From assembly GCF_900890425.1 (NCBI RefSeq), contig NZ_CAAHFG010000001.1, positions 4,278,001 through 4,342,000 of the forward strand: 64,000 nucleotides of DNA, read 5' to 3'. Source of the stretch: Pontiella desulfatans (GTDB taxonomy: Bacteria > Verrucomicrobiota > Kiritimatiellia > Kiritimatiellales > Pontiellaceae). Positions 12,315-61,626 of this stretch are shown in pieces. Position 1 is the first letter of the stretch, and each line of letters begins with the position of its first letter. The translations under genes and the position numbers were made by a program. The notes below the pieces were generated by a model. That model made no database searches, was not told where the DNA came from, and saw only the letters and a list, made by a program, of their open reading frames with translations.

Positions 12315-13346
12315 TTATCCAAACATCAGCTTTTCATCAAAATCCTTTCCGTTCATTACATGCCACATCGCCTTGGCCAACTTGCAGGCCAGCGCTTTTT
12401 TCGCCTTAGGCACGCCGCTCGTTCTTTTTTTACGTTCGTACCAGGCGTGGATGCGCGGGTTGAAGCGCGCGGCATAGGTTGCGGCCTCACCGAATGCCCA
12501 TGCGCGCTACCGGTTGCCGTTCTTCGCGTTGTTTTTACCCTTCTTTTTTCAGTTCGCACTGTATTCACTTTTTTCCGCCCGGCAGTAGGGGGCGTAGTCG
12601 CCCGCGCTTTTGAAGCGGCTGAAATCCCCGCTCTCAAGGGCGACAAGCATTCCCAGCGCATCCCCGATTCCCGTAACCCCCCGCGGCCGTCGGTATGGCT
12701 TTGTCGGTTTTGCGACTGCCAGCACCTGCTGCTCGACCTTTTTCGCCAGGCGATCCGACTCACGGATGGCTTCAAGCAGGGTTTCGAGCTGAAGCTGAAC
12801 GAATTCGTCGAGTCCGGTGGCCTGAATATCTTTTAATGTCCACTGTTCCAACTTGCGCGCACCCGGAGCATCCAGGCCATAGCGTTCGAGCAGGCCGCCG
12901 AAGCTCAGCAGCACCTGTGTCCGACGGCGCACGAACAGCTGTCTTCTGCGCAATGCATCGCGTACGGGGCGTGTTTCCTTCGGATAGATGTAGCTTTCCG
13001 GAAAGATACCCAGCCGGAGCTGCTCGGCCAGCCAGTCCGCATCCGTCAGATCGTTAGTGATCTTGATCCCCTTGTACTGCTCCATCTTCGCCGGGTTGCC
13101 CAGCTTTACATTACGGTCTTTCTCGCGAAGTCCATCGACGAACCAGTACCAGTTAAAGGTCGATTCCACGCCCAGCGCCACGATCCGATCCCAGAACGGG
13201 TCGAGCGCAGCATTGACGGCCGCAAGGTTCGCTTTCACGCGTTTGCGGAACACCGTGTTCCCCTCCTGATCACAAAGGGAGAGGAAAACATTGTTTCCAT
13301 GCAGGTCGGCACCTGCGTATAGTGCATTTGCTTTGGTCGTTTGCAT
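12315..13346 (-). pseudogene. IS110-family transposase with two in-frame stops
   Basis: Reads MQTTKANALYAGADLHGNNV... through a DEDD RuvC-like domain (D14 in AGADLHG; E61 near VESTFNWYWFVDGL) to the C-terminal transposase_20 region (YRRPRGVTGIGDALG, GDYAPYCRAEKSEYSAN). Then TGA at about 12549 and TAG at about 12506 interrupt a frame that continues sensibly (KKKGKNNAKNGNR, then RAWAFGEAATYAARFNPR) to a natural stop at 12315. There are no indels, so point mutations have killed the gene. It sits between the broken integrase and hoxH. Confidence 0.88.
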
Positions 13347-13499: not shown

Positions 13500-14930
13500 T
13501 TAGTCGCGCACCCGGCGGTCGAGGGTGTTGCCTGCGGCGTCTTCGAGTTCGACGATCAGCGGCATCTGCCCCATGGCGTGGGTGGCGCAGGAGAGGCAGG
13601 GGTCGTAGGCGCGGATGGCGACTTCGACGCGGTTCAATAAGCCTTCGGTGATTTCCGTGCCGGAGAGGTATTTCTTCGCCACCCCTTCCACCGCCAGGTT
13701 CATCGGCGTGTTGTTGTTGGTGGTGGAGACAATCAGGTTGGCCATCGTCACCTGGTCGTTTTCATCAACCTTGTAGTGATGGAACAGCGTACCGCGTGGT
13801 GCCTCGATCAACCCAACCGACTCCCCTCGCCTTTCGCCGGTTGCCATGAGGTCGGTTCCCTGCAGGTCGGGATCGTTGAGCAGGTCGCGGATTTTTTCGC
13901 CGGAATGAAGCAGTTCGATCATGCGCGCCCAGTGGTAGGCCATCGTAATGTTGTTCGGCTTTCCGTCGGTGACCGAGAGAAAATCCTTGCGGGCGTCCTC
14001 GGCCTCGGGGGTGTCGATGAAATCGCAGGCATTCACGCGTGCCAGCGGCCCGACGCGGTACCATCCCTTTTCCGGCCCCAGCTCGGAGATGAACGGGAAT
14101 TTCATGTAGGACCACGGCTTCACTTCCTCGGCAATATACTTGAAGTAGCCCTGGTAATCGACCTGGTCGAAAATCGTGTCGCCATCCTTGGTGATGGCGC
14201 GCAGGTTACCGTGGTAGAGATCCATCGCGCCGTCCTCGCGGATGAGGCTGACGTGGTTGGAATCGAACGAACCAAAATCGGCCAGCTCGCCGATATGCTC
14301 CAGGGTGTAGTCCTTGGCAATCTTCAGCGACGCGCGGCACCATTCGAGCATCTGGTCGATCTCCTTCAGGAATCCATCGCGCTCCTCGATCGAGAGATTT
14401 TTGTTGATGCCGCCGGGCACCGCACCGGTTCCGTGGATTTTTTTACCGGCGGTGGCCTTGATGATTTCCTGGCCATACTTGCGCATCATGACACCCTGCA
14501 CCGCAAGATCCGGGAACTTTTGCGCCACGCCGATCACATTGCGCTCGAGCGGATCGGCATCGAACCCAAACAGCAGGTCGGGCGAAACGAGGTGGAAGAA
14601 ATGCAGCGCATGGCTTTGGAACATTTGGCCATAGTGCATCAGCCGCCGCATCTTTTCCGCCGTCGGCGTCAAGGTATCCACTCCCACGATACCGTCCATG
14701 GCTTTGGCGGCGGCGAGGTGGTGGCTGACCGGACAGATGCCGCAAAGCCGCTGCACCAGCACCGGCACTTCCCAATAGGGCCGCCCCTGGATAAAACGCT
14801 CGAAACCGCGAAACTCGACAATGTGCAGCCGCGCCTGGCTAACATCACCTTTTTCGTCCAGCAGGATGGTCACCTTGCCGTGGCCCTCGACTCTTGTCAC
14901 AGGTTCTATGGTTATTTTTTTTGTGCTCAT
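13500..14930 (-). CDS. hoxH: NAD-reducing [NiFe] hydrogenase large subunit
   Basis: 476 aa. Holds the Ni-Fe(CN)2CO active site. Ligands are C63 and C66 in RLCGICPVSHH (L1/L2 region, with RVEGHG at 13-18) and C445 and C448 in DPCLSCATH near the end. 25 residues follow H451 and are the peptide that a HoxW-type protease must remove. The C-terminal sequence and the partner set (HoxY, HoxU, HoxF) point to a group 3d-like bidirectional enzyme that couples H2 to NAD(H). The protease gene hoxW is not adjacent but beyond the IS/integron. A 91-bp gap with a repeat separates it from hoxY. Confidence 0.95.
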   Translation of the reverse strand: MSTKKITIEPVTRVEGHGKVTILLDEKGDVSQARLHIVEFRGFERFIQGRPYWEVPVLVQRLCGICPVSHHLAAAKAMDGIVGVDTLTPTAEKMRRLMHYGQMFQSHALHFFHLVSPDLLFGFDADPLERNVIGVAQKFPDLAVQGVMMRKYGQEIIKATAGKKIHGTGAVPGGINKNLSIEERDGFLKEIDQMLEWCRASLKIAKDYTLEHIGELADFGSFDSNHVSLIREDGAMDLYHGNLRAITKDGDTIFDQVDYQGYFKYIAEEVKPWSYMKFPFISELGPEKGWYRVGPLARVNACDFIDTPEAEDARKDFLSVTDGKPNNITMAYHWARMIELLHSGEKIRDLLNDPDLQGTDLMATGERRGESVGLIEAPRGTLFHHYKVDENDQVTMANLIVSTTNNNTPMNLAVEGVAKKYLSGTEITEGLLNRVEVAIRAYDPCLSCATHAMGQMPLIVELEDAAGNTLDRRVRD

Positions 14931-14989
14931 GGAAACCTCCTTGCGTACTACATATTGCGTACTGTGTATCTAAATTTCGTCAGGTTGAC

Positions 14990-15020
14990 TTTGCGTTCCT
15001 TGCGTTCTTTCGCGGTTAAA
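14990..15020. repeat. Dispersed TTTGCGTTCCTTGCGTTCTTTCGCGGTTAA-type repeat
   Basis: Between hoxY and hoxH. The same string, slightly changed, occurs at 8931-8960 and 9361-9390 (both upstream of the hoxW copies), and a relative is found at 55035-55058. Confidence 0.6.
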
Positions 15021-15021
15021 A

Positions 15022-15567
15022 TCAGTCGTATTTCAACAGTTCGTACGGAAGCTCGACCGGCTTATCGGTCAGCAACGCAGTGAGTGCGGCCCAGAGCGTG
15101 TCAGCCGAGGGCGGGCAGCCCGGCAGGAAATAGTCGATCTTCACGACTTCGTGGCACGGATAAACCTTGTTGAGCAGCAACGGGATCTCCGGATCCTGCG
15201 GCACAATGCCCTCCGGATTGTAGACCGTCGGGCCGTCGCGGTAGGCCTCGTTAATGCACTCCTCCAATGGAATATTGTTCCGCATGGCGGGAATGCCGCC
15301 CATGGTGGCGCAGTCGCCGAACGAGATCAGCACATCGCAGTTTTCGCGGAATTCGTGCAGCACATGCACGTTTTCCTCGTTGCAGCAACCGCCCTCGACC
15401 AAGCCGACGGCACAGCGTTGCGAGATATGCTTGATGTCGTCGATCGGCGAACGGTCGAAGTCCACCAGCTCGATCAGCTGGAGAATCCGTTCGTCGATGT
15501 CGAGCAAGGACATATGGCAGCCGAAGCATCCGGCCAACGATGTGGTTGCAACCCTTGGCTTACTCAT
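15022..15567 (-). CDS. hoxY: [NiFe] hydrogenase small subunit
   Basis: 181 aa, the short HoxY type with a single proximal [4Fe-4S] cluster. Ligands visible: C14 and C17 (GCFGCHMS), a cysteine in EGGCCNEENV and one in PGCPPSADT. It passes electrons between HoxH and the HoxFU diaphorase. The start overlaps the stop of hoxU by 4 bp (ATGA). No twin-arginine signal, so the enzyme is cytoplasmic, as expected for an NAD-linked hydrogenase. Confidence 0.94.
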   Translation of the reverse strand: MSKPRVATTSLAGCFGCHMSLLDIDERILQLIELVDFDRSPIDDIKHISQRCAVGLVEGGCCNEENVHVLHEFRENCDVLISFGDCATMGGIPAMRNNIPLEECINEAYRDGPTVYNPEGIVPQDPEIPLLLNKVYPCHEVVKIDYFLPGCPPSADTLWAALTALLTDKPVELPYELLKYD

Positions 15568-16271
15568 GACCGCACCCCCTCGATATCCGAACCAATCGGC
15601 TTTTTGTCGTACAGGCGCTCCCCAACCGGAACCTTGAAACCGACGCGCTTCTTAATGATGCACCCGACCGGGCAAATGTCCGCCGCGCGGTCGGAAACCG
15701 CCATGTCGGTATCGCCCAGCGCCTTCTCGCCATTGACGCCAATCTTCCGTTCGAAGCCCCGTCCGATCGACTGGAACACGTTCTTGCCGTCGAGCTCCTG
15801 CGAGGCGCGCACGCAGCGCGCGCACATGACGCAGCGGTTGTGGTCGAGCATCACGTCGGGATGCGAGGCATCGACCTCCTTTTCCGGGAACTGGAAGGGA
15901 TACTGCGGTGCGGAGATGCCGAAGCGGTAGGCCAGCGCCTGCAGTTCGCAGTTGCCGCTCTTTTCGCAGAACATGCAGAAGTGGTTTCCTTCCACAAACA
16001 TCATGTCGATAATGTTGCGCCGATGCTGCAGCAGCTGCGGGGTTTCGTTTTCGATCACCATGCCCTCCATCACCGGCTTCACGCAGGCGGCCTGCGGGCG
16101 GCCATCGCACATGACCGTGCAAACGCGGCAGCTACCGATCGGCTTCAGGTCCGGGTGCGAGCAGAGGCGCGGGATGTAGATGCCCGCGTCGTCGGCCGCC
16201 TCGAGAATCGTCTGCCCCAATCGGGCTTCGATTTCTTTTCCATCAATCGTGATTTTTACCGTATCGCTCAT
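15564..16271 (-). CDS. hoxU: Hydrogenase diaphorase iron-sulfur subunit
   Basis: 235 aa, NuoG-N-terminal type. A [2Fe-2S] ferredoxin domain has C37, C48, C51 and C63 (RLCSHP, GSCRVCTVMC, AAC). The His/Cys [4Fe-4S] region is HFCMFCEKSGNC, and a C-terminal ferredoxin-like site has CVMCARC with CPVGC. It links the flavin of HoxF to HoxY. It lies 9 bp after hoxF and overlaps hoxY. Confidence 0.93.
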   Translation of the reverse strand: MSDTVKITIDGKEIEARLGQTILEAADDAGIYIPRLCSHPDLKPIGSCRVCTVMCDGRPQAACVKPVMEGMVIENETPQLLQHRRNIIDMMFVEGNHFCMFCEKSGNCELQALAYRFGISAPQYPFQFPEKEVDASHPDVMLDHNRCVMCARCVRASQELDGKNVFQSIGRGFERKIGVNGEKALGDTDMAVSDRAADICPVGCIIKKRVGFKVPVGERLYDKKPIGSDIEGVRS

Positions 16272-16280
16272 GGCTCCCTC

Positions 16281-18098
16281 CTAGGCGTGGAAAATTTCGG
16301 AACGTCGGCCGGCGATGGCACTGGCCGCCTCGACCGCTTTCATGATGTTGAACGATTTCTGCAACCCGTCGCCGTTGTCCTTCACCAGCGCATTGTAGAC
16401 CGGCCGGAAGTTTTTCAGCGTGGAGAGCACCGGGTTGGGCGAGGTTTGCCCCAGCCCGCAACGGCTGGTGAACTTGACGCTTTCGCCCAAGCGCTGGAGA
16501 TAGTCGAGGTCGCTTTGGGCCCCCTCCCCCTTACGGACGCGTTCGAGCCGTTTTTTGAGCAATACGTTGCCCACGCGGCACGGAACGCAATAGCCACAGC
16601 TTTCATCCACGAAGAATTCCATGAACGCATCGGCCACTTCGAGAATGTCGCGCTGGTTGCTGAAGACCATCATCGAGCCGCCGGTCGAGAGTTCCTCATA
16701 GCTGATGCCGAGGCCGAACTGCGCCGGGCCGACCATCTGCCCGGACGGGCCGCCCACGCAAACGCAGGCCACGTCGTCGGCACCGGCGCGTTCGAGAATA
16801 TCGCCGAGCCGGGTGCCGAACGGCACCTCGTAGATGCCCGGGCGCTCGCAGTCGCCGCAGACACTGAGCAGCTTGGTGCCGGCGCTGCGGTCGGTGCCGA
16901 TGCCGGAAAACCAGCCCGGCCCCATGTCCATGATGCGCGCGGCGCAACAATAGCTTTCCACATTGTTCACGGCGGTGGGCGAAACCATGTAGCCTTTCAC
17001 CACAGGGAAGGGCGTCCGGTCGGTTGGATCGCCGCGAGTGCCTTCGCACGAGCTGATCAAGGACGTCTCCTCGCCACACACATAGGCTCCGGCGCCCATC
17101 TGAATCCGGACGTCGAAATTAAACCCTTCCTTGCCCAGAATATTGATGCCCAGCAGGTTGGCCGCCCGGCGCTGGTTCATCGTGTCCTCCAGGTATGCGC
17201 GCAGATAGGCATATTCACCGCGCAGGTAGATAATGCCGGTTTCCGCGCCGATGGCATAGGCCGCCACCGTCATGCCCTCGAGCACCAGGTCGGCGCGCTC
17301 GGTGAGCAGCACGCGGTCCTTGAACGTGCCCGGCTCGCCTTCGTCGGCGTTGCACAGCACGAACTTATCGGTTCCTGGCGACTGCCGGGTCAATTCCCAC
17401 TTCAGGCCGGTCAGGAATCCCGCGCCGCCGCGACCCCGCAGGCCGGAGTTCTTGACATCCTCGATCACCTCTTCCGGCGCCTGGGTCAGCGCCTTGCGCA
17501 GGCCGGCGTCCCGGCGGTAGTTGGCGAGAATCACCGGGCCGGCCTCCCGGATGTGGTTGTTCACCATGGCGTGCACCAGCGGATCGGCGTTGATGCCGTC
17601 GCCTGTTTCATGGACCAATGCCTGCGGATCCGGGTTTTCCTGCAACTGCCTAATGATGCCCGGAATGCTTTCCGGCGTCAGGTTGGTTACGACCGTATCG
17701 TTCACCATCATCGCCGGGGCTTGGTCGCTCATGCCGATGCAGGGGGTCTTTTCCAGGGTAATGGAGCCATCGCCGGTTGTTTCGCCAAAGCCGATGCCCA
17801 GCGCTTTGCAGAGGGCCTCGCCCACGGCCTCGCCGCCCTTGAAGCGGTCGATGATGTCGTCGCAGAGACGGATCACGACATCGCCCTTCTTGTTATCGGA
17901 GAGGAAGGCGTAGAACGAGACCACGCTTTCCACCTCGACCCGATGGGTGTTCGCCTCGTCGGCGATAAGGCCGAAGGCTTCGCGCGGAACATGGCCGATG
18001 CGCTCCTGCACCTCCTGCACAATATCCATCAACCGTGCGCGGTTGTTGCCGTATTTCCCGCAGATTTCCCTGATCAACAGTGCCTGTTCACCACTCAT
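16281..18098 (-). CDS. hoxF: Hydrogenase diaphorase flavoprotein (NuoE-NuoF fusion)
   Basis: 605 aa. Residues ~1-160 are NuoE-like; ~175 onward is NuoF-like with the NAD/FMN glycine-rich motif GLRGRGGAGFLTGLKW, and a [4Fe-4S] site ESCGYCVPCR plus a later Cys in SRCGLGQ. Oxidises/reduces NAD(H) for the hydrogenase. In the NuoE-like part the canonical C-x4-C / C-x3-C set is incomplete: RLCDDIID lacks the second and PCIGMSD the fourth cysteine, so this [2Fe-2S] cluster is probably absent. First gene of hoxFUYH; an AGGAGG precedes the ATG. Confidence 0.94.
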   Translation of the reverse strand: MSGEQALLIREICGKYGNNRARLMDIVQEVQERIGHVPREAFGLIADEANTHRVEVESVVSFYAFLSDNKKGDVVIRLCDDIIDRFKGGEAVGEALCKALGIGFGETTGDGSITLEKTPCIGMSDQAPAMMVNDTVVTNLTPESIPGIIRQLQENPDPQALVHETGDGINADPLVHAMVNNHIREAGPVILANYRRDAGLRKALTQAPEEVIEDVKNSGLRGRGGAGFLTGLKWELTRQSPGTDKFVLCNADEGEPGTFKDRVLLTERADLVLEGMTVAAYAIGAETGIIYLRGEYAYLRAYLEDTMNQRRAANLLGINILGKEGFNFDVRIQMGAGAYVCGEETSLISSCEGTRGDPTDRTPFPVVKGYMVSPTAVNNVESYCCAARIMDMGPGWFSGIGTDRSAGTKLLSVCGDCERPGIYEVPFGTRLGDILERAGADDVACVCVGGPSGQMVGPAQFGLGISYEELSTGGSMMVFSNQRDILEVADAFMEFFVDESCGYCVPCRVGNVLLKKRLERVRKGEGAQSDLDYLQRLGESVKFTSRCGLGQTSPNPVLSTLKNFRPVYNALVKDNGDGLQKSFNIMKAVEAASAIAGRRSEIFHA

Positions 18099-49861: not shown

Positions 49862-50507
49862 GATATCGTCACTCATGTCTGGAGCCGCACACGCAAACTC
49901 TTCAGCAATGGATTGCGGCACAACCCGATCTCACCCTCAAGGAGCTGGAGCTTAGGTGCAAGCAGGAGCTTCATGTTCGAATAGGGATCACCGCGCTATG
50001 GCAGCAGCTCGACAAGCTTGGTCTAAGCTTTAAAAAAAAACGCTTCACGCCAGCGAGCAAGATCGTGAAGATGTTCGTCTGGCGCGGCTGGTCTGGAAAG
50101 CACAGCAACCGGAATGGCCGGCCGCCAAGCTGGTATTCATCGACGAAACTGGCCTGAACACCAAAATGACCCGAGGATATGGGCGGGCTCCGCTGTCAAA
50201 GCGTTGCGTTTGTAAGGTTCCGTACGGTCACCGGCACACCAATACTTTTATTGCCGCGCTTCGGGTCGATGGGCTACATGCTCCATGGCTATTGGATGGA
50301 CCGATGAACAGTCAGGCGTTCCTTGTTTATGTTAGACAGGTACTTGCGCCGGAACTTCAAAAGGGTGATCGTGTTGTTTGCGACAATCTTTCATCCCACC
50401 ATGCCCCTGGAGTTCGCGAAGCCTTGGAGGAAGTCGGGGCTGAGCTGATGTATCTACCTCCCTACAGCCCGGTGCACTTTTCAACCGGCGTTTACCGCTT
50501 TTTTTGA
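49862..50507 (+). pseudogene. IS630-family transposase remnant
   Basis: Reading TLQQWIAAQPDLTLKELELR... then LVFIDETGLNTKMTRGYGRA, RVVCDNLSSHHAPGVREAL and LMYLPPYSP gives the DDE core of IS630 (IDET; CDNLSSH; PPYSP). The two halves are joined by a -1 shift at a run of nine A (50033-50041), which may be a programmed frameshift site as in other IS. Both ends are missing: no HTH start and the last acidic residue region after PPYSP is replaced by unrelated DNA. Confidence 0.85.
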
Positions 50508-52505: not shown

Positions 52506-54974
52506 ATGAACCCGACCCTGATCATGGCGACCCTCTTGCTGGCGGCTTCCCTTGCCCCTGCAGCGACCGATCCGGTGCATGCCGCCCATGCGCTGGATTT
52601 CGATGTGATTAGCCAAAACATTGAACAATACCATCCTTCGCAGTGGGCCGAATACGGCAAGGTGGCGGCCCAGGCCCTGCGCACGGACGCGCTGATTCTT
52701 GAAGCCGACCGCACTCCGGTGGACGTCGTCCTGCGGCGTACGCAGGCCCTGCTCGACCACCTCGGCGCGAAGCAACACCAACGGGACCTCAACCAACTCA
52801 AACGTAAAAACAAAGCGGGCCTTTCGGTTGAAGGGCAACGCGCATTGTTCATGGAGGTCGCGGAGCTGCGCCGCAAGGCGGCCTTTTCCAATCCCCTGCT
52901 CGACTTCGACTCGCTCCTCTTCCTTAAGCACAATCCCAAGGCACGCGGCGACAACCACATGGTCGATCAATATCTCGGCTTCAACCAGTCGTCCGGAGGG
53001 GGTATCTTCCGGCTCGACCATCCCTTCACAAACCCGCAGGCCACTAGCCTACTGGACGATGAACTCGATCAAGAAAACGGCTCGTTCATTTCGCTCGACC
53101 TCGACTACGACGCGAACGAAATCCTTTTCGCCTACACGCCGCTCGACTGGAAGGGCCATACCGAAACAAACAACTGGAACGGCCAACCGTGGAACCCGCA
53201 GGAGGCCTCCCGCAACAACCACAACAAACACTATTGCTTCCTCGAAGAGTCGGCCTTCCATATCTTCAAGGCCAATGCCGACGGCGGGAACCTCCGGCAG
53301 CTCACAACCGGACAATGGGACGACTTCGACCCCGTCTTCCTGCCCAGCGGTCGCATCGTTTTCATCTCTGCCCGCGCCGGGGGAACCCAGCGGTGCGGCT
53401 ACCGCTTCATCCCCACCTACACCCTGTTCGGCATGATGCCCGACGGTTCCGACATCCAGCAGTTCAGCTGGCACGACACCAACGAATGGCACCCCAGTGT
53501 CAACCACGACGGCATGCTCGTCTACACCCGCTGGGACTATGTCGACCGCGATTCCGACATTGCCCACCACCTTTGGTTCTGCTACCCGGACGGCCGCGAC
53601 CCGCGCTCGATGCACGGCAACTATCCCGACAACCGCTCGCACCGCCCGTGGATGGAAATGAGCATCCGCGCCGTACCCGGTTCCCACCAATACACCGCCG
53701 TCGCCGCGCCCCACCATGGCGAGGCCTACGGCTCGCTCGTCCTCATCGACCAAGCGCTTCCGGACGACCGCGCGATGTCGCAGGTCAAGCGAATCACGCC
53801 GCTCTCCGCCTTTCCTGAATCCGAAATCACTCCCGGCCTCTCGTTCCGCGACGGCAAGGGCAACAAGCAGCGCGACTGGAACTATGGAACCCCGTGGCCA
53901 CTCTCCGACGACTTCCACCTCTGCGTCTACTCCCATAAAAAACTCGGCAACTATGGCATCTATCTCGTCGACAGCTTCGGCAACCGCGAGCTCATCTATC
54001 GCGATCCAAGCATCTCCTGCCTCGACCCAATCCCCTTCCGCCCGCGCACGCGCCCGCCCGTCATCCCCGTCCAAACCCAGCAGATGCAGGCCGACCGCGA
54101 GCCGGGGCTCGATCCCTCCATCGGCACGGTCTCGGTCATGAACGTCTACGAAGGCGAATTCCCGATTCCCGAAGGCATAACGATCAAGGAATTGCGCATC
54201 GTCAACGTCTTCCCAAAATCGACGCACGCCATCGACAACCCGCGCATCGGCCATGCCGACCAGTCGATCGCGCGCGGCGTGCTCGGCACGGTGCCCGTCG
54301 AGGAAGACGGCAGCGTCTTCTTCGAATGCCCCACCGGGGCGGGCCTCTATTTCCAGCTGCTCGACGAACACGGCATGATGGTGCAGAACATGCGCACCGA
54401 CACCTACCTGCATCCCGGCGAAAAGCTCAACTGCATCGGTTGCCACGAAGACAAATTGAACGCGCCGAAGATCAACCGGGTTCCGCTGGCCCTCAAGCGC
54501 CCGCCTTCCAAAATCAAGCCCGAAGCGCCCGGCTCCTGGCCGCTCACCTTCCCGCGCCTCGTCCAGCCCGTGCTCGACAAGCACCCGGATTTCTTCGCCG
54601 CGCTCTATCCCGAAAAAAACCTCAGCGGAACCGAGTTCGGCAAGTGGGGCTGGTCGCAAGCCATGCACACGCTCGAGAAAGACGCATGGGGCAAGCATGG
54701 CGGCAACGGGGCCCTCTCGAAGAAAAACAAACGCTCCTACTCCCTCCCCATGCAGGAAGGTGCCCGCGTCTCCAAACTCTGGAAAAAACTCGAAGCCGCC
54801 GGGGCGCGCGAAAAACTACCGCCCGAAGACCTGCGCCGCATCACCCTCTGGCTCGACTGCAACTCCAACTTCTACGGCGCATACAAGGATATCGGCCAGC
54901 AGGCGCAGGGCGCAGCCCTCCTCCCCCAAGACGGAATCCCCGCCTGGTCGCCCCCCAACCAATTCGTTAACTAA
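52506..54974 (+). CDS. HzsA-like (hydrazine synthase alpha-type) cytochrome, one heme
   Basis: 822 aa. Signal peptide MNPTLIMATLLLAASLAPAA; N-terminal helical/beta region; central propeller with HZS-alpha/PD40-like repeats (NADGGNLRQLTTGQWDDFDP; LPSGRIVFISARAGG; HDGMLVYTRWDYVDRD); C-terminal domain with one c-type heme motif CIGCH (C643-H647) and a final LDCNSNFYGAY. At the point where the next paralogue has CVGCH, this protein has H693-PDFF, so a second heme is lost. Periplasmic. These proteins are widespread in PVC bacteria; the reaction is unknown. First gene of the operon, with a paralogue 96 bp downstream. Confidence 0.85.
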   Translation: MNPTLIMATLLLAASLAPAATDPVHAAHALDFDVISQNIEQYHPSQWAEYGKVAAQALRTDALILEADRTPVDVVLRRTQALLDHLGAKQHQRDLNQLKRKNKAGLSVEGQRALFMEVAELRRKAAFSNPLLDFDSLLFLKHNPKARGDNHMVDQYLGFNQSSGGGIFRLDHPFTNPQATSLLDDELDQENGSFISLDLDYDANEILFAYTPLDWKGHTETNNWNGQPWNPQEASRNNHNKHYCFLEESAFHIFKANADGGNLRQLTTGQWDDFDPVFLPSGRIVFISARAGGTQRCGYRFIPTYTLFGMMPDGSDIQQFSWHDTNEWHPSVNHDGMLVYTRWDYVDRDSDIAHHLWFCYPDGRDPRSMHGNYPDNRSHRPWMEMSIRAVPGSHQYTAVAAPHHGEAYGSLVLIDQALPDDRAMSQVKRITPLSAFPESEITPGLSFRDGKGNKQRDWNYGTPWPLSDDFHLCVYSHKKLGNYGIYLVDSFGNRELIYRDPSISCLDPIPFRPRTRPPVIPVQTQQMQADREPGLDPSIGTVSVMNVYEGEFPIPEGITIKELRIVNVFPKSTHAIDNPRIGHADQSIARGVLGTVPVEEDGSVFFECPTGAGLYFQLLDEHGMMVQNMRTDTYLHPGEKLNCIGCHEDKLNAPKINRVPLALKRPPSKIKPEAPGSWPLTFPRLVQPVLDKHPDFFAALYPEKNLSGTEFGKWGWSQAMHTLEKDAWGKHGGNGALSKKNKRSYSLPMQEGARVSKLWKKLEAAGAREKLPPEDLRRITLWLDCNSNFYGAYKDIGQQAQGAALLPQDGIPAWSPPNQFVN

Positions 54975-54986
54975 CAGGAATTAAAT

Positions 54987-55058
54987 ATGACCGCTAAGAC
55001 GCTAAGAAACAAAGCATCCAAATACCCGCCCTTTCGTATCTTTGCGTCTTTGCGGTCA
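54987..55058. repeat. Hairpin repeat between the two HzsA-like genes
   Basis: TGACCGCTAAGACGCTAAGA (54987-55006) and its inverted relative TCTTTGCGTCTTTGCGGTCA (55039-55058) could form a ~24-bp stem. Related to the TTTGCGTTCCTTGCG strings at 8931, 9361 and 14990. Confidence 0.75.
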
Positions 55059-55070
55059 AAATATTTCCAT

Positions 55071-57443
55071 ATGATGAGAAATTCTTCTGCCACCAAATTA
55101 TTCTGCTTAATTCCACTATTGGCCATGCGAACGCACGCAAGCGAAGTCGAGGAACAGTACAAGGTACTGGAGTTCGACCTGACGCGCGTCGCCCATTTCG
55201 AGAGCATCGCATCCGAAACCCTCCACCCGCAGGCGCTGGTCACCCTGGCCGACCGCGACCCACTGGACATCCTCCTGCGCCGCACCCGTGCGCTGCTCAA
55301 CGACATTGAACAGATGCCGGGCGCGCCGGACATGAAGGCGTTCGCCAAGCGGCTCAAAGAGTTCGAACGTTCCGAGGACGGCCGGAAGGAGCTCTTTGCC
55401 AACGTTCATGAGCTCCGCCGGGAGATCGCCTTTGCCAACCCCCTGCTCGACTTCGACAAGATCCTCTTCATCAAACGCCACCGCTCCAACTTCAGCCACA
55501 TGTGCGACCAGTTCTACGGTGCGCACGCGCGCCCCGGTGGCGGCGTTTGTGTTTTAGGCAACCCCTTCAGCGACCAGCCTTCCGTCCGGAATATTGTTCC
55601 CGAACTAAACGATGGCAGTTTCCTCTCCCCGGAGCTCGCGTTCGACGGCAAGCAGATCATGTTCGCCTACGTTGAAGGCACCGGCGACAAGAAACATATC
55701 GTCCACCTCGACCACGAGCGCGGACATTGGGAAGAAGGCCGCTGCTACCACCTCTATTCCGCCGACCTCGACACTGAAGGCAACGCCTCAAATTTGAAGC
55801 AACTCACCGAAGGCACCTTCAACGACTTTGATCCGTGCTACCTGCCGAATGGGCGCGTCGCCTTCATCTCCGAGCGGCGCGGCGGCTACCTGCGCTGCGG
55901 ACGCGCCTGCCCTTCGTACACCGTGCACGACATGAAGCCCGACGGTTCCGATATCCGCATCCTCTCCCCCCACGAAAACAACGAGTGGCAGCCGAGCGTC
56001 CTGCACGACGGCATGCTCGCCTACACCCGCTGGGACTATGTCGACCGCCACGGTTGCGTGGCCCACCATCCGTGGATCATGACGCCCGACGGTCGCGACT
56101 CGCGCGCCGTGCACGGCAACTTTTCCGTCGCCAAGAAACGCGCCGACATGGAGATGGATCTGCGCGCCGTGCCGAGCTCGAACAAAATGATCGGCACCGC
56201 CGCACCGCACCACGGCCAGGCCTACGGCTCGATCATTCTCATCGACCCGCGCGTGCCGGACGACGATGGAATGGCGCCCGTCAAGCGCGTCACACCCGAA
56301 GTCGGTTTCCCCGAAACCCAGAAAGGCAAACAGGTCTACGGCACGCCGTGGCCGCTGAGCGAAGATTACTACCTCGTTATCTACGACGCCAAAATGCAGC
56401 AACGCAACGGACGGCAGGGCGACAAATCCAACCCCCGCGGCGAATACGGCATCTACCTGCTCGATAAGTTCGGCAACAAGATCCTGATCTACCGCGATCC
56501 GGAAATCGCCTGCCTCAGCCCCATCCCGCTGCGCCCGCGCCCGATGCCCCCCGCCCTGCCCGAAAAGTGCGACCGCCTCGCCGACACGCCGCCGACGCAC
56601 GGCTCCATGGCCGTCATGGATGTCTACGACTCGTTCCTGCCCTGGCCGAACGACACCAAGATCAAAGCGTTGCGCATCGTCCAGATCCACCCCAGCTCAG
56701 TGCCCTCCGGGCCGCGGCCGCACGAGACCGGGCGGCGCATCGCCGAAGCGTCCGACTCGGTCAACCTCACCCGCAGCATCCTCGGCACCGTGCCCGTCGA
56801 GGAGGACGGCAGCGCGCACTTCAAGGTCCCCGCACTCAAGGAACTCCTTTTCCAGGCGCTGGACGAAAACGGCCTTGCCGTGCAGTCGATGCGCTCCTCC
56901 ACCTGGGTGCAGCCCGGCGAACAGCTCGTTTGCATGGGCTGCCACGAACCGAAAAACCGCGCGCCGCTCCCATCGAACCACGTACCGCTGGCCATGAAGC
57001 GCAAGCCATCCGAACCGATGCCCGACGTCGATGGCACCAACCCCTTCAGCTACCCGCGCCTCGTTCAGCCCGTGCTCGATAAGCATTGCGTCGGCTGCCA
57101 CGACAAGGACCACATGCTTCCGCTCGACCGCACCATCGTCGACTCCAAGCTCGACCGCCAAAGAACCACGCAGGTCTACCGCTCCTACGACAGCCTCATT
57201 CACAAATACGCGTTCTGGGAGTTCGGCGACCACTACCGCACCATCCCCGGCCAGTTCGGCGCCCGCGACTCCAAACTCTACAAGATGCTGAAGAATGGAC
57301 ACAGCAACGTCAAGCTGACCGACGAAGAGCTGCACCGCATCACCGTCTGGCTCGACTCGATGTCGAACTTCTACGGCGTCTACGAAAAGGAAGGCGGCCT
57401 CGCCCAGCTCCGCGGCGAGATCGTCCAACCCACGCTGGAATAG
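55071..57443 (+). CDS. HzsA-like (hydrazine synthase alpha-type) diheme cytochrome
   Basis: 790 aa from ATG giving MMRNSSATKLFCLIPLLAMRTHAS; an ORF start 84 nt upstream reads through a hairpin repeat. Same domain order as its upstream paralogue: propeller repeats (LPNGRVAFISERRGGYLRCGR; HDGMLAYTRWDYVDRHG) and a C-terminal cytochrome domain, here with two heme c motifs CMGCH (C621-H625) and CVGCH (C673-H677), ending LDSMSNFYGVYE. HzsA of anammox bacteria also has two c-hemes in this region. Periplasmic, probably forming a complex with neighbouring heme proteins. Substrate unknown. Confidence 0.87.
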   Translation: MMRNSSATKLFCLIPLLAMRTHASEVEEQYKVLEFDLTRVAHFESIASETLHPQALVTLADRDPLDILLRRTRALLNDIEQMPGAPDMKAFAKRLKEFERSEDGRKELFANVHELRREIAFANPLLDFDKILFIKRHRSNFSHMCDQFYGAHARPGGGVCVLGNPFSDQPSVRNIVPELNDGSFLSPELAFDGKQIMFAYVEGTGDKKHIVHLDHERGHWEEGRCYHLYSADLDTEGNASNLKQLTEGTFNDFDPCYLPNGRVAFISERRGGYLRCGRACPSYTVHDMKPDGSDIRILSPHENNEWQPSVLHDGMLAYTRWDYVDRHGCVAHHPWIMTPDGRDSRAVHGNFSVAKKRADMEMDLRAVPSSNKMIGTAAPHHGQAYGSIILIDPRVPDDDGMAPVKRVTPEVGFPETQKGKQVYGTPWPLSEDYYLVIYDAKMQQRNGRQGDKSNPRGEYGIYLLDKFGNKILIYRDPEIACLSPIPLRPRPMPPALPEKCDRLADTPPTHGSMAVMDVYDSFLPWPNDTKIKALRIVQIHPSSVPSGPRPHETGRRIAEASDSVNLTRSILGTVPVEEDGSAHFKVPALKELLFQALDENGLAVQSMRSSTWVQPGEQLVCMGCHEPKNRAPLPSNHVPLAMKRKPSEPMPDVDGTNPFSYPRLVQPVLDKHCVGCHDKDHMLPLDRTIVDSKLDRQRTTQVYRSYDSLIHKYAFWEFGDHYRTIPGQFGARDSKLYKMLKNGHSNVKLTDEELHRITVWLDSMSNFYGVYEKEGGLAQLRGEIVQPTLE

Positions 57444-57445
57444 TC

Positions 57446-58405
57446 ATGTTCAAACCACGTAATTTGAAAAGACAGCGCAAAGCGTTCTGGAGCGCGGAGG
57501 CAACCAACGGGCGACACCGCTTTCCGCGTACAAAGAGCGGCGTGGCGCTCCGCTTCCCGCCGCACTCCAGAACGATTGCATTGTGCCTTTTCGTGGTAGC
57601 AAACGCTGAAGCAAAGGAAATCAAGCACCGCTTTTTGGCGAAGGATGAATCGCGGGCGCAGTTGCACTATGTCGACCAGCTCGATGCCTCCAAGGATTGG
57701 ACGATCAAGCTGGAAAAGGGTTGCCGCGATATCCGGCTGCTGGACAACCACCGCGTATTGGTTTCGCATGCCGACGGCTATGCGGAGTTCGATCTCGCCA
57801 CGCAACAACAGGTGCATGAAGTGCGCGATGCACGGTTCAAGAAGACGGAAACCGTCAGCCGCCTGCCCAACGGCAACACAATTCTCGGCGCAAACCAGAA
57901 GGGCATCACCTTTTTCGAGATCGCACCGGATGGCGCGGTGGTTCGGCAGGTCAACTTTCCGCAGTTCAACACCATGCGGCTGATGCGCCTTTCGCCGGAA
58001 GGCCGTTTCCTGTTCGGCGCCAACACCGACCACGTCATCGAAGCGGATTGGGACGGAGCCATCCACGCCGACATCCAGGTTCCCGGCGCCAAACATATTT
58101 ACTGGATTCGGAAAATGGATGCGCACTACCGCGTCTCGACGGGCTATGGCAAGTCGATCGTCGATGTCAGCCCGCAAGGCGAGGTGCTGCGCACGCTCGG
58201 CGGAACCGACGACTATTTTTTCTTTTCGCGCCCGTTCGAGTTGGCCAACGGAAACACCGTCTGCTGCAACTGGACGGGGCACAAGCCCAACGACAGCGAG
58301 AAGGCGCCGCAGCTCGTCGAGTTCGACCCGCAAGGCAACGTCGTCTGGAACTGGCACGATCCCCAACGCGCCGGCACCATCCACGGCGTCATCGTTTTAG
58401 ACTAA
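57446..58405 (+). CDS. Secreted beta-propeller protein
   Basis: 319 aa from ATG 2 bp after the HzsA-like stop. Residues ~55-319 form WD40/PQQ-like blades (LPNGNTILGANQKGITFFEI; FELANGNTVCCNWTGHKP; QLVEFDPQGNVVWNWHD). The export signal (TIALCLFVVANAEA) is unusually far from the start, at residues ~37-50, because an inverted repeat (57482-57574) lies inside the first codons. No heme motif. Probably an accessory or structural partner of the heme proteins. Confidence 0.75.
   Translation: MFKPRNLKRQRKAFWSAEATNGRHRFPRTKSGVALRFPPHSRTIALCLFVVANAEAKEIKHRFLAKDESRAQLHYVDQLDASKDWTIKLEKGCRDIRLLDNHRVLVSHADGYAEFDLATQQQVHEVRDARFKKTETVSRLPNGNTILGANQKGITFFEIAPDGAVVRQVNFPQFNTMRLMRLSPEGRFLFGANTDHVIEADWDGAIHADIQVPGAKHIYWIRKMDAHYRVSTGYGKSIVDVSPQGEVLRTLGGTDDYFFFSRPFELANGNTVCCNWTGHKPNDSEKAPQLVEFDPQGNVVWNWHDPQRAGTIHGVIVLD
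57482..57574. repeat. Palindromic repeat inside the 5' end of the propeller gene
   Basis: GCGTTCTGGAGCGCGG (57482-57497) and CCGCACTCCAGAACG (57560-57574) are inverted copies with one mismatch. The ~93-bp unit adds about 31 codons without breaking the frame. Confidence 0.75.
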
Positions 58406-58423: not shown

Positions 58424-58506
58424 TTGGCAAAATAATTGAATGCAAAATGAGGGTCATGCCCCATGCGTTATCGAAGCCAACATTTTGCATTGAATGATTT
58501 TGCTTA
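58424..58506. repeat. Dispersed hairpin repeat, family A (copy 2)
   Basis: TTGGCAAAATAATTGAATGC and its inverted counterpart GCATTGAATGATTTTGCTT fold into a stem of ~24 bp. The right half is the same repeat as at 44190-44218. Confidence 0.72.
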
Positions 58507-58529: not shown

Positions 58530-59672
58530 ATGAGCTTTGATTATCACATTCCAACCAGGATCCTGTTTGGCGCAGGGAAACTGAACCAGCTGGCGGAGGA
58601 GCCGCTGCCGGGGACGAAGGCGCTGATCGTCATGTCGAACGGCGGCTCGATGAGACGGCACGGCTACCTGGAACGGCTCGAAGGCCTGCTGAAGCAGCAG
58701 AATATTGAATCGATCGTCTTCGACAAGATCCAGCCCAACCCCATCAAGGAACATGTGATGGAGGGGGCGGCGCTCGTGAAAGAACACCATTGCGATTTTG
58801 TCGTCGCGCTCGGCGGCGGCTCGCCCATCGATGCCGCAAAGGCCATTGCTGTGATGGCGGTCAACCCGGGCGACTTTTGGGACTATATCGGGAGCGGCTC
58901 CGGCAAAGGGCAGCCCGTGAAAAACGGCGCGTTGCCGATCGTGGCGATCACCACCACGGCAGGCACCGGCACCGAGGCCGACCCGTGGACGGTCATCACC
59001 AACGGCACCGAAAAGATCGGCTTCGGCTTGCCGCCGCACACGTTCCCGACGATCTCGGTGGTCGATCCCGAGCTCATGGTTTCGATTCCGCCGCATCTGA
59101 CGGCCTACCAGGGGTTCGATGCCTTTTTCCATGCGGTCGAGGGCTATATGGCCAACGTCGCCACACCGATGAGCGACATCTACGCGCTCGAAAGCATCCG
59201 GCTCGTGGCCGGATATTTACCGCGTGCGGTGGCCGAAGGCACCGACATCGAGGCGCGCGAAAAGGTGGCGCTGGCCAACACCCTTTCCGGCATGGTTGAA
59301 TCGACCTCCTGCGTGGTGTCGCAACATGCGCTTGCCCACGCCATGGGCGCGCTCTACCCCGAGCTGGCGCACGGGGCGGGGTTGCTGATGCTTTCCGAGG
59401 CCTACTTCAGCCATTTTGCCCCGCACTGCACCGTCCGCTATGCCAAGATGGCGGCGGCCATGGGCGGCACCGACTTCCTCGCCGAGCTGCTGGCCCTGCA
59501 GGACCAATGCGGCGTGCGCGGCCTCAGGATGTCGGAGTACGGCATCACCGAAGACGGTCTCGAGGCGATTGCCGCCAATGCGATCGACACCATGGGCTTC
59601 CTGTGCGATTTCGATCCTGTCCAGACCACGCAGGCCGATGCCGTCGATATTCTACGAGCCGCTTTTAAGTAG
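58530..59672 (+). CDS. Iron-containing alcohol dehydrogenase
   Basis: 380 aa from ATG giving MSFDYHIPTRILFGAGKLNQ. NAD motif ALGGGSPIDAAKAI, TTAGTGTEAD, DPELM and metal-ligand helix (D in YQGFDAFFHAVE, H in SQHALAHAMGALYPELAHGAG). Group III (BDH/1,3-propanediol-type) oxidoreductase of aldehydes or alcohols; substrate unknown. Cytoplasmic, embedded among the exported heme proteins on the same strand. It may reduce a product of the pathway or belong to a sugar-degradation step. Confidence 0.88.
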   Translation: MSFDYHIPTRILFGAGKLNQLAEEPLPGTKALIVMSNGGSMRRHGYLERLEGLLKQQNIESIVFDKIQPNPIKEHVMEGAALVKEHHCDFVVALGGGSPIDAAKAIAVMAVNPGDFWDYIGSGSGKGQPVKNGALPIVAITTTAGTGTEADPWTVITNGTEKIGFGLPPHTFPTISVVDPELMVSIPPHLTAYQGFDAFFHAVEGYMANVATPMSDIYALESIRLVAGYLPRAVAEGTDIEAREKVALANTLSGMVESTSCVVSQHALAHAMGALYPELAHGAGLLMLSEAYFSHFAPHCTVRYAKMAAAMGGTDFLAELLALQDQCGVRGLRMSEYGITEDGLEAIAANAIDTMGFLCDFDPVQTTQADAVDILRAAFK

Positions 59673-59838: not shown

Positions 59839-61626
59839 ATGAAATTATTTTCAACCATTGCCATATCATTCGCGCTGCTAGGGGCGGCCGGGGCCCAGAC
59901 CTATCTCTCCCCGTGCGACATCGATCAATCGCCGGATAAAAAGACGATTTACATTACGGCCCACACGGGGCGCCAACTACTCTGCTTCGACGTTGCCTCG
60001 AAGAAGGTCGCGAAATGCATCGACCTGCCGGCGCAACCATCCGGCACCGTCCACTCCACCGACGGCAAAACGCTGTTCATTGCCGGCGGAGGCCCGGACG
60101 GCCGCATTTGGAAGGTGGATAACGGCACCATTACCGGCGAGTTTGAAACCGGACACACCCCCATCTCGCCGGTGCCCTCCCCCGACGGGAAAATGCTCTA
60201 TGTCTGCAACCGCTTCGACACCGATGTCTCCTTCATCGATCTCGCCTCCGGCGAAACCGTTGCGCGGGTTCCCGTGCTGCGCGAACCGGTGGCCGCCGAT
60301 GTCACCCACGACGGCAAGTTCCTGTTCGTGGCCAACCATATCCCGGACGGGCGGGCAGACGTGGATTATGTGGCCTCCAAGATTTCCGTCATCAATACGG
60401 CAACGAAGGAGGTCGAGACCATCCCGCTGGTCAACGGCGCGGAAGGCGTCCGCGACCTCAAGGTTTCGCCCGACGGCACGAAGATTTTCGCCACGCACCT
60501 GATGGCGCGTTTCCTCGTGCCGACCACCCAGCTGGAACGCGGCTGGGTTTCCACCGATGCGCTCAGCGTCATTGATGTCGCCAGCCGGTCACTGGAATAC
60601 ACCGTGCTGCTCGACGATGTCGATCAAGGCTTCCCGAACCCATGGGCCATCGGTTTTTCCAAGGATGGCAACACACTGGTGGTCTCCTCCGCCGGCAACC
60701 ACGAGATCAGCCTGATCAACCTCCCGGCCATGCGGGAAAAAATCGAGGCCGAAGCCAAGGCCGCCGAAGGGGAGGCGCACCTCAATGCGCACAACAACCT
60801 TTCGTTCCTGTCCGGCATCCGCAAACGCATCAAGCTGGCAGGCAACGGACCGCGCGCCCTCGTGGTGGACGGCGAATTCATCTATATCGGCAACTATTAT
60901 TCCGACACGCTGGAAGTGGTCCGGGTTTCCAAGGACTGGAGCACCCGTAGCGGCGTCTTCCAGCTTGGCCCCCAGCAAAAGCTTACGCCCGAACGCCTAG
61001 GCGAAATCTTTTTCAACGATTCCGCGCTCTGCTTCCAAAACTGGCTGAGCTGCGCCACCTGCCACCCCGACGCACGCACCGATGCCATGAACTGGGATTT
61101 GCTCAACGACGGCATGGGCAACCCCAAAAACGTCAAGACGATGCTGCTGGCCCACCAAACCCCGCGCGCCATGTGGCTGGGCGTCCGCGCCGATGCCGAG
61201 ACCGGCGTCCGCGCCGGCATCAAGCATATCCAGTTTGCCGTCCGCCCCGAAAAGGATGCCGTGGCCATCGATGCCTACCTCAAGAGCCTCGAGCCCGTTC
61301 CCAGCCCCTACCTGGTGGATGGCAAGTTGAGCGATGCCGCCAAACGCGGCGAGCGTATTTTCGGAGAACAAGGATGCATCGGTTGCCACCCCGCCCCCTA
61401 CTTCACCGATCTGAACATGTATGACATGGGCACCACCAAGGGGCAGGACGAAGGATTGCCCGTGGATGTCCCGCAGCTCATCGAAAGCTGGCGCACCGCG
61501 CCCTACATGCACGATGGTCGCGCCGCAACCATGCGCGATGTATTCTCGGAATTCCAGCACGGCAACGTTTCCGGCCTTTCCGAAAAGCAGATCAACGACC
61601 TCTCCGAATACGTGCTGTCGCTTTAA
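59839..61626 (+). CDS. Beta-propeller/diheme peroxidase-like fusion (HzsB-HzsC architecture)
   Basis: 595 aa. Signal peptide MKLFSTIAISFALLGAAGAQ. Residues ~21-375 form a YncE-like seven-blade propeller (SPDKKTIYITAHTGRQLLCF; SPDGKMLYVCNRFDTDVSFI). Residues ~385-595 form a MauG/CcP-like diheme domain with CATCH (C405-H409) and CIGCH (C513-H517) and the APYMHDGRAATMRDVF segment (distal-heme methionine). Hydrazine synthase beta is a propeller and gamma a diheme CcP-like subunit, fused in some anammox species; this protein has that layout. Other propeller-cytochrome fusions exist, so the functional link is not proven. Confidence 0.85.
   Translation: MKLFSTIAISFALLGAAGAQTYLSPCDIDQSPDKKTIYITAHTGRQLLCFDVASKKVAKCIDLPAQPSGTVHSTDGKTLFIAGGGPDGRIWKVDNGTITGEFETGHTPISPVPSPDGKMLYVCNRFDTDVSFIDLASGETVARVPVLREPVAADVTHDGKFLFVANHIPDGRADVDYVASKISVINTATKEVETIPLVNGAEGVRDLKVSPDGTKIFATHLMARFLVPTTQLERGWVSTDALSVIDVASRSLEYTVLLDDVDQGFPNPWAIGFSKDGNTLVVSSAGNHEISLINLPAMREKIEAEAKAAEGEAHLNAHNNLSFLSGIRKRIKLAGNGPRALVVDGEFIYIGNYYSDTLEVVRVSKDWSTRSGVFQLGPQQKLTPERLGEIFFNDSALCFQNWLSCATCHPDARTDAMNWDLLNDGMGNPKNVKTMLLAHQTPRAMWLGVRADAETGVRAGIKHIQFAVRPEKDAVAIDAYLKSLEPVPSPYLVDGKLSDAAKRGERIFGEQGCIGCHPAPYFTDLNMYDMGTTKGQDEGLPVDVPQLIESWRTAPYMHDGRAATMRDVFSEFQHGNVSGLSEKQINDLSEYVLSL

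Follow-up and report, generated by a model that had tools for sequence, protein, structure and literature searches.

To our knowledge, hydrazine synthase was long believed to have no relatives. Fused homologues of its beta and gamma subunits, encoded close to alpha homologues outside the anammox bacteria, are already in print (clades I-IV of PMC12758564; PMC10732223), and a broad family acting on other substrates has already been suggested (PMC10732223). Genes of this kind have also served as grounds for proposing new anammox bacteria (PMC10732223), which gives weight to the question of what these relatives do. The residues discussed for hydrazine synthase include gamma Cys102, Cys105, His106, His144 and Cys165 and alpha Tyr591 (PMC12758564), with gamma Asp168 as a further one (PMC12607021), and the model of the latter paper has heme gamma II take up electrons and hand them to the open-site heme gamma I. 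The published homologues resemble the Pontiella gene studied here in being fused, in lying near an alpha homologue and in having lost hydrazine synthase residues. Nevertheless, the main text of PMC12758564 makes no mention of Kiritimatiellota or Pontiella, and the Trp that it describes as conserved in its clades I-III occurs in only 10 of the 55 aligned rows of the family of our gene, which therefore differs from those clades. What is new here are the Pontiella members, the loss of this Trp in most of the family, its separate clade and an operon context of LsrF, DhaKL and isomerase genes; in the open-access literature that was searched, no paper links hydrazine-synthase-like genes with LsrF/DhaK operons.

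The gene lies at 59839..61626 of the window (the whole stretch of 64,000 nucleotides of DNA that was analysed from Pontiella desulfatans, a marine fermenter of sugars) and encodes a protein of 595 amino acids; like the HzsA-like, propeller and alcohol dehydrogenase genes that precede it, it is on the forward strand. The sequence-only reading had described a single-chain propeller plus diheme peroxidase-like protein in the order of a fused HzsB-HzsC, and both parts are present: Pfam places propeller models in the first half of the protein and CCP_MauG (36.2 bits, cut-off 25.6) and Cytochrom_C in the second. A putative Sec signal peptide at about residues 1-19 (MKLFSTIAISFALLGAAGA; 59839..59895), suggested by the sequence and by the low pLDDT of these residues, precedes an HzsB-like beta-propeller (about residues 25-376; 59911..60966) and an HzsC-like diheme cytochrome domain (residues 375-595; 60961..61623). 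As that reading had also reported, two CxxCH motifs start exactly 108 residues apart (C405 and C513) and are accompanied by an MHDGR segment (residues 557-561; 61507..61521). The first motif, CATCH (residues 405-409; 61051..61065), is the equivalent of gamma Cys102/Cys105/His106, and the second, CIGCH (residues 513-517; 61375..61389), aligns with the gamma II site. Both are kept in 55/55 family rows, and the codon differences between the gene and four orthologues fall mostly on third positions (in the 593 codons compared with the L025 orthologue, 118 first, 82 second and 302 third positions differ), which together indicate a real protein-coding gene under constraint and not a chance reading frame. 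Pontiellaceae supply the nearest relatives of the protein, which are 63-73% identical to it across the alignment. The counts of promoters and terminators in the surroundings of the gene (3 and 11) showed no real excess over those in shuffles (2.5 and 10.8), and a first pattern search, with 9 matches against 12 in the reversed control, was uninformative.

Among all the models, NCBIfam hydrazine_BC gave the protein its best score (126 bits), but this is only about a tenth of the cut-off of 1250. In a sequence search of the PDB (phmmer), the leading matches were the archaeal surface-layer YVTN propeller 1l0q (7e-24), HzsB (1.6e-23) and HzsC (4.6e-18). Two heme-free AlphaFold2 models, one of the full protein built from 40 aligned relatives (pLDDT 87, pTM 0.90) and one of the cytochrome domain alone (pLDDT 80), were compared with PDB chains at the chain level using VIA Z scores. 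The best match of the full model is HzsB (5c2v_B; Z 44.8, 339 residues, rmsd 2.4), followed by 1l0q (Z 35.0), and that of the cytochrome domain is HzsC (5c2v_C; Z 16.7, 218 residues, rmsd 2.9), followed at a small margin by BCcP (14.9). The structural comparison with the beta-gamma part of hydrazine synthase that had been proposed thus places HzsB and HzsC ahead of BCcP and MauG. A surface-layer propeller, the competing relative named by the sequence-only reading, shares the propeller repeats and is marginally first by sequence, but HzsB is clearly first by structure and 1l0q has nothing that matches the cytochrome domain. The loop inserted in HzsB (THQTPKNWLPVCEAENG...) aligns with a region of the window protein that begins with THLMARFLVPTTQLERGW (60496..60612), the sequences matched being THLMARFLVPTTQLERGW and THQTPKNWLPVCEAENGQ. 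Weak profile matches of the 595-residue protein include MauG and MbnH models, and the structural matches of its cytochrome domain include MauG and 6e1c. Since, by structure, each half has a hydrazine synthase chain as its best PDB match, the description as fused HzsB-HzsC-like holds for ancestry and architecture as judged from the predicted models; it is not supported for function or membership, as hydrazine synthase residues are missing and the protein does not group with the anammox sequences.

The residues were compared in an alignment of 70 rows, made up of 55 family rows (window protein included), 7 deeper homologues and 8 anammox rows; L009, L109, L108, L112, L011, L063, L062, L066 and L020 were left out as duplicates or fragments, and L067, not recovered at 1e-10, is also absent. 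The heme I motif, with the equivalent of His106, is universal in this alignment. The segment carrying gamma Cys165 (the third heme-binding Cys) and Asp168 is present in 8/8 anammox rows, but absent from 55/55 family rows and from the 7 deeper homologues. At the position of gamma His144, the seven residues most often found in the 55 family rows are Ile (24), Trp (10), Ala (7), Ser (5), Val (5), Leu (2) and Thr (1), with no His among them, and the window protein has Trp446 (61174..61176). The Glu of the HzsB loop (residue 254 of ORF L087, which we take to be Glu253) is replaced by Gln in 52/55 rows, including Gln231 of the window protein. The column of the second heme II ligand (DMHG in HzsC) holds His in 36/55 rows; the window protein is gapped there and its candidate second axial ligand is the nearby His574 (FQHGN; 61558..61560), within an alignment that is uncertain by a few residues. 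The family keeps both hemes, and several columns near heme I are invariant (R413, D415, N418, W419, D420, N423, D424, R450 and G460), none of the alignment columns providing a fixed distal residue at heme I.

The phylogeny of 81 rows, which is unrooted, groups the 8 anammox rows with L096-L102 (15 rows, SH-aLRT 99) and separates them from the 66 rows of the window's family. Forcing the anammox and Pontiella sequences into one clade in a set of 31 rows costs 71.8 log units (AU p 2.2e-8). In addition, the HAO/HDH family (PF13447) has no gene in the P. desulfatans genome (G000, 95% complete), compared to 12 and 14 in two anammox genomes (G132 and G389), and a read-off of the Tyr591 motif gives CMGCHEPKN and CIGCHEDKL in the HzsA-like neighbours, against CTGCHWGSY in anammox. 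A hydrazine synthase that has diverged but still works, its host being an anammox-like organism so far overlooked, would account for the likeness to HzsB/HzsC (5c2v) and to fused HzsBC (NF052342) in domain order and fold, in the region of the inserted loop, in a CcP-like diheme domain that keeps both CxxCH and perhaps has a bis-His second heme, and in the nearby HzsA-like genes, and the same proposal has been made for Phycisphaerae with similar genes (PMC10732223). Yet, the absence of Cys165 and Asp168, the replacement of His144 and of the loop Glu, the partners devoid of the Tyr591 motif, the score, the separate clade and the missing HAO/HDH genes rule out hydrazine synthase proper, PMC12758564 rejects the proposal for related clades, and we consider even a diverged version highly improbable.

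The claim that the gene lies 3' of HzsA-like genes was borne out: two genes with PF18582 (77 and 98.5 bits, cut-off 26.6) are found upstream, with two other genes in between. The two HzsA-like proteins are 45% identical copies; the first (52506..54974, 822 aa) retains one CxxCH only, its second site being lost, and the other (54987..57443, 818 aa) has two. They are followed by a 319-aa propeller protein (57446..58405), a homologue of the Mala_s_1-like propeller of the operon described below (phmmer 1.9e-17 to the L038 protein in a set of five), and by an iron-containing alcohol dehydrogenase (58530..59672; the longest ORF starts at 58494, but the start at 58530 has a better upstream GGA). The order HzsA-like, HzsA-like, propeller, alcohol dehydrogenase, fused beta-gamma gene (hereafter BC) becomes IclR, HzsA-like, alcohol dehydrogenase, HzsA-like, propeller, BC in the relative L025, where the propeller stop and the BC start overlap as ATGA. 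Elsewhere in the window, a short transposase-like fragment was read shortly upstream of the HzsA-like genes (50166-50507), and there is an IS110-type transposase (12549-13346). The large subunit of a NiFe hydrogenase is encoded together with NuoE/F- and NuoG-like subunits at 13500-18098, and these probably make up an NAD-linked hydrogenase. Two minus-strand genes have domains named after TOTE conflict systems (PF22708, PF22721) and PF22860 (28310-32116).

The whole P. desulfatans genome (8.66 Mb) contains 11 PF18582 genes and 3 BC genes, and 3/3 of the latter adjoin an HzsA-like gene or lie a few kb from one, for which rough arithmetic from the genome counts gives a chance of about 2.5% per BC gene within 10 kb. 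The paralogue locus at 1.85 Mb has an ATGA overlap between the end of the HzsA-like gene and the beginning of BC. The BC paralogues have much longer open frames with extra parts (L152 12657-16553, 1299 aa; L153 10094-12895, 934 aa). At C1 3.226-3.239 Mb (L172, C1:3222000-3241900), 1.1 Mb from the window gene, the genome has an LsrF-type operon made up of IclR, a cupin resembling lyxose isomerase, DhaK, DhaL, LsrF, a membrane protein, a Mala_s_1 propeller and an HzsA-like gene, with no BC gene in it. The HzsA-like gene of this operon (L017) is the nearest relative of one of those in the L025 operon, which, together with the lack of BC, suggests that a single BC protein may possibly serve several HzsA-like partners. 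A cytochrome c assembly gene is also present. Another HzsA-like gene (L173 7046-12827) stands beside IclR and, judging from the sequence, a putative FGGY sugar kinase; genes of SDR and sulfatase-like type lie close by.

The loci of the relatives were collected through the similarity of their BC proteins to that of the window or that of L041, and the seeds of the alpha search were the window and L041 proteins, so that the sample leans to the window's family. An HzsA-like gene occurs within 7.5 kb in 33 of 58 BC loci; where both flanks reach at least 5 kb (24 loci), the figure is 17, and four of the seven full-flank loci with no such gene near come from one planctomycete subclade. Several planctomycetes with genomes of about 4 Mb are rich in PF18582 (18-30 genes each in G023, G025-G027, G031-G033, G035, G037, G038 and G042), and BC-like genes of several of them have no HzsA-like gene near. 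Among the 58 loci (with L042 and L144 being one place counted twice, the window's own propeller missed, and the Pfam survey covering 58 chosen neighbours), the genes found near by were FkbO (18), isomerase (15), IclR (11), propeller (11), DhaK (10), DhaL (8), LsrF (8) and iron-containing alcohol dehydrogenase (2), and all but one of the loci with LsrF or DhaK come from Bacteroidota. In several loci of that phylum and in one planctomycete (L047), these genes form a compact operon in the order IclR-BC-FkbO-isomerase-DhaK-DhaL-LsrF-propeller-HzsA-like. The whole set is found in L038, and most of it in L145 (without FkbO), L155 (whose contig ends before any HzsA-like gene) and L042, L047, L057 and L063 (each without one to three members). 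Its LsrF protein scores above the NCBIfam cut-off (451 bits against 297) and matches PDB LsrF (1.7e-103), its isomerase is a cupin, of Tat or lipoprotein type, whose profile matches D-lyxose isomerase structures (3.1e-25), and its FkbO/Hyg5-like protein scores 129 bits against a cut-off of 325. FkbO-like genes were also seen in Lentisphaerota (L032), Verrucomicrobiota (L036) and Planctomycetota (L044, L046), and within the order of Carboxylicivirga 21 of 295 genomes gave a BC-like gene (1e-30). The window has no LsrF or DhaK gene; it shares with the operon set only the HzsA-like and propeller genes, and the alcohol dehydrogenase with one relative (L025). The idea that each beta-gamma lineage is strictly paired with a single alpha lineage found no support: the HzsA-like genes near BC are scattered in their tree (7 changes where shuffles average 9.2, with 21/500 shuffles as low) and form no single clade, the window pair not being orthologous to the L025 pair.

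The domain architecture, the homology to HzsB and HzsC, the missing hydrazine synthase residues, the repeated occurrence near HzsA-like genes and, for part of the loci, the linkage to a sugar-catabolic operon are what is observed. The loss of key residues and the presence of some relatives in sugar-breakdown clusters suggest that the protein probably has a different heme redox job. The reading that we favor, with a probability of about one half, is that the product of the gene is an exported homologue, in a single chain, of the beta-gamma part of hydrazine synthase; with HzsA-like cytochromes it would form an extracytoplasmic heme oxidoreductase that serves anaerobic saccharolytic bacteria by acting on a compound derived from carbohydrate, and it does not make hydrazine. 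The export, the formation of the complex, the ligation of the hemes and the direction of electron flow are inferred. Heme I, with His409 as the proximal ligand and no conserved distal one seen, would be an open catalytic site, heme II, perhaps bis-His (His517/His574), would serve electron transfer as in HzsC, and the propeller would dock the HzsA-like partner. Given LsrF and DhaKL in the same operons and the chemistry of LsrF, the conversion of a C5 diketone-type intermediate to DHAP and acetyl-CoA is chemically plausible; the heme proteins could then be producing a deoxy- or keto-sugar on the extracytoplasmic side, from a substrate that can only be guessed at. Besides the structural matches, the HzsA-like linkage and the conserved operon, the LsrF operon and the cytochrome c assembly gene of P. 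desulfatans itself speak for this oxidoreductase, as do Pontiella strains being described as fermentative, with c-type cytochromes of unexplained role (PMC7356697). Against it stand the 7/24 loci with no HzsA-like gene near, the few loci with LsrF or DhaK near and the window with none, the HzsA-like partners that are not one clade and the P. desulfatans LsrF operon devoid of BC.

Several other functions could be served by such a protein. A diheme peroxidase of the BCcP type, removing periplasmic H2O2 with the propeller as its docking part, would agree with the CCP_MauG fold, the two CxxCH and the position of Trp446, which in the window protein and its near relatives is that of the Trp of MauG/CcP. 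Known BCcP and MauG enzymes differ in having no propeller fused in front. The better, if only by a small margin, structural match to HzsC, the rarity of the Trp in the family, the likely His instead of Met/Tyr at the second heme and the linkage to catabolic genes make it unlikely. Alternatively, the protein could oxidatively modify a partner protein (the HzsA-like protein, the propeller or the alcohol dehydrogenase) instead of a small molecule, as a maturation enzyme similar to MauG; the MauG and MbnH profiles, the structural matches to MauG and 6e1c and the linkage with protein partners fit this idea, but HzsC is again the better match and an unsystematic look at the neighbourhoods inspected revealed no candidate precursor, so we regard it as slightly more improbable still. 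The cytochrome module could also dispose of fermentation electrons to quinone, sulfur, metal or AQDS with no chemistry of its own. Pontiella reduces AQDS, ferric citrate and sulfur and has c-type cytochromes that lack an explanation (PMC7356697); yet, a heme I devoid of a conserved distal ligand suggests a substrate site, and the linkage is to specific pathway genes, which leaves this explanation no less doubtful than a peroxidase.

A wider and rather unlikely reading is that the fold of hydrazine synthase (alpha and beta-gamma) is mainly a carbon-chemistry machine, a multiheme enzyme of anaerobic polysaccharide degraders that would oxidise or rearrange a sugar outside the cytoplasm, DhaKL and LsrF yielding DHAP and acetyl-CoA after its import; the hydrazine synthase of anammox bacteria would then be an offshoot of this broader family that has specialised in nitrogen. 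The LsrF, DhaKL and lyxose-isomerase-like neighbours in culturable anaerobes such as Carboxylicivirga, and the gene pairs in Pontiella, offer a concrete place to seek the substrate, and genes that resemble hzs should not be read as anammox markers.
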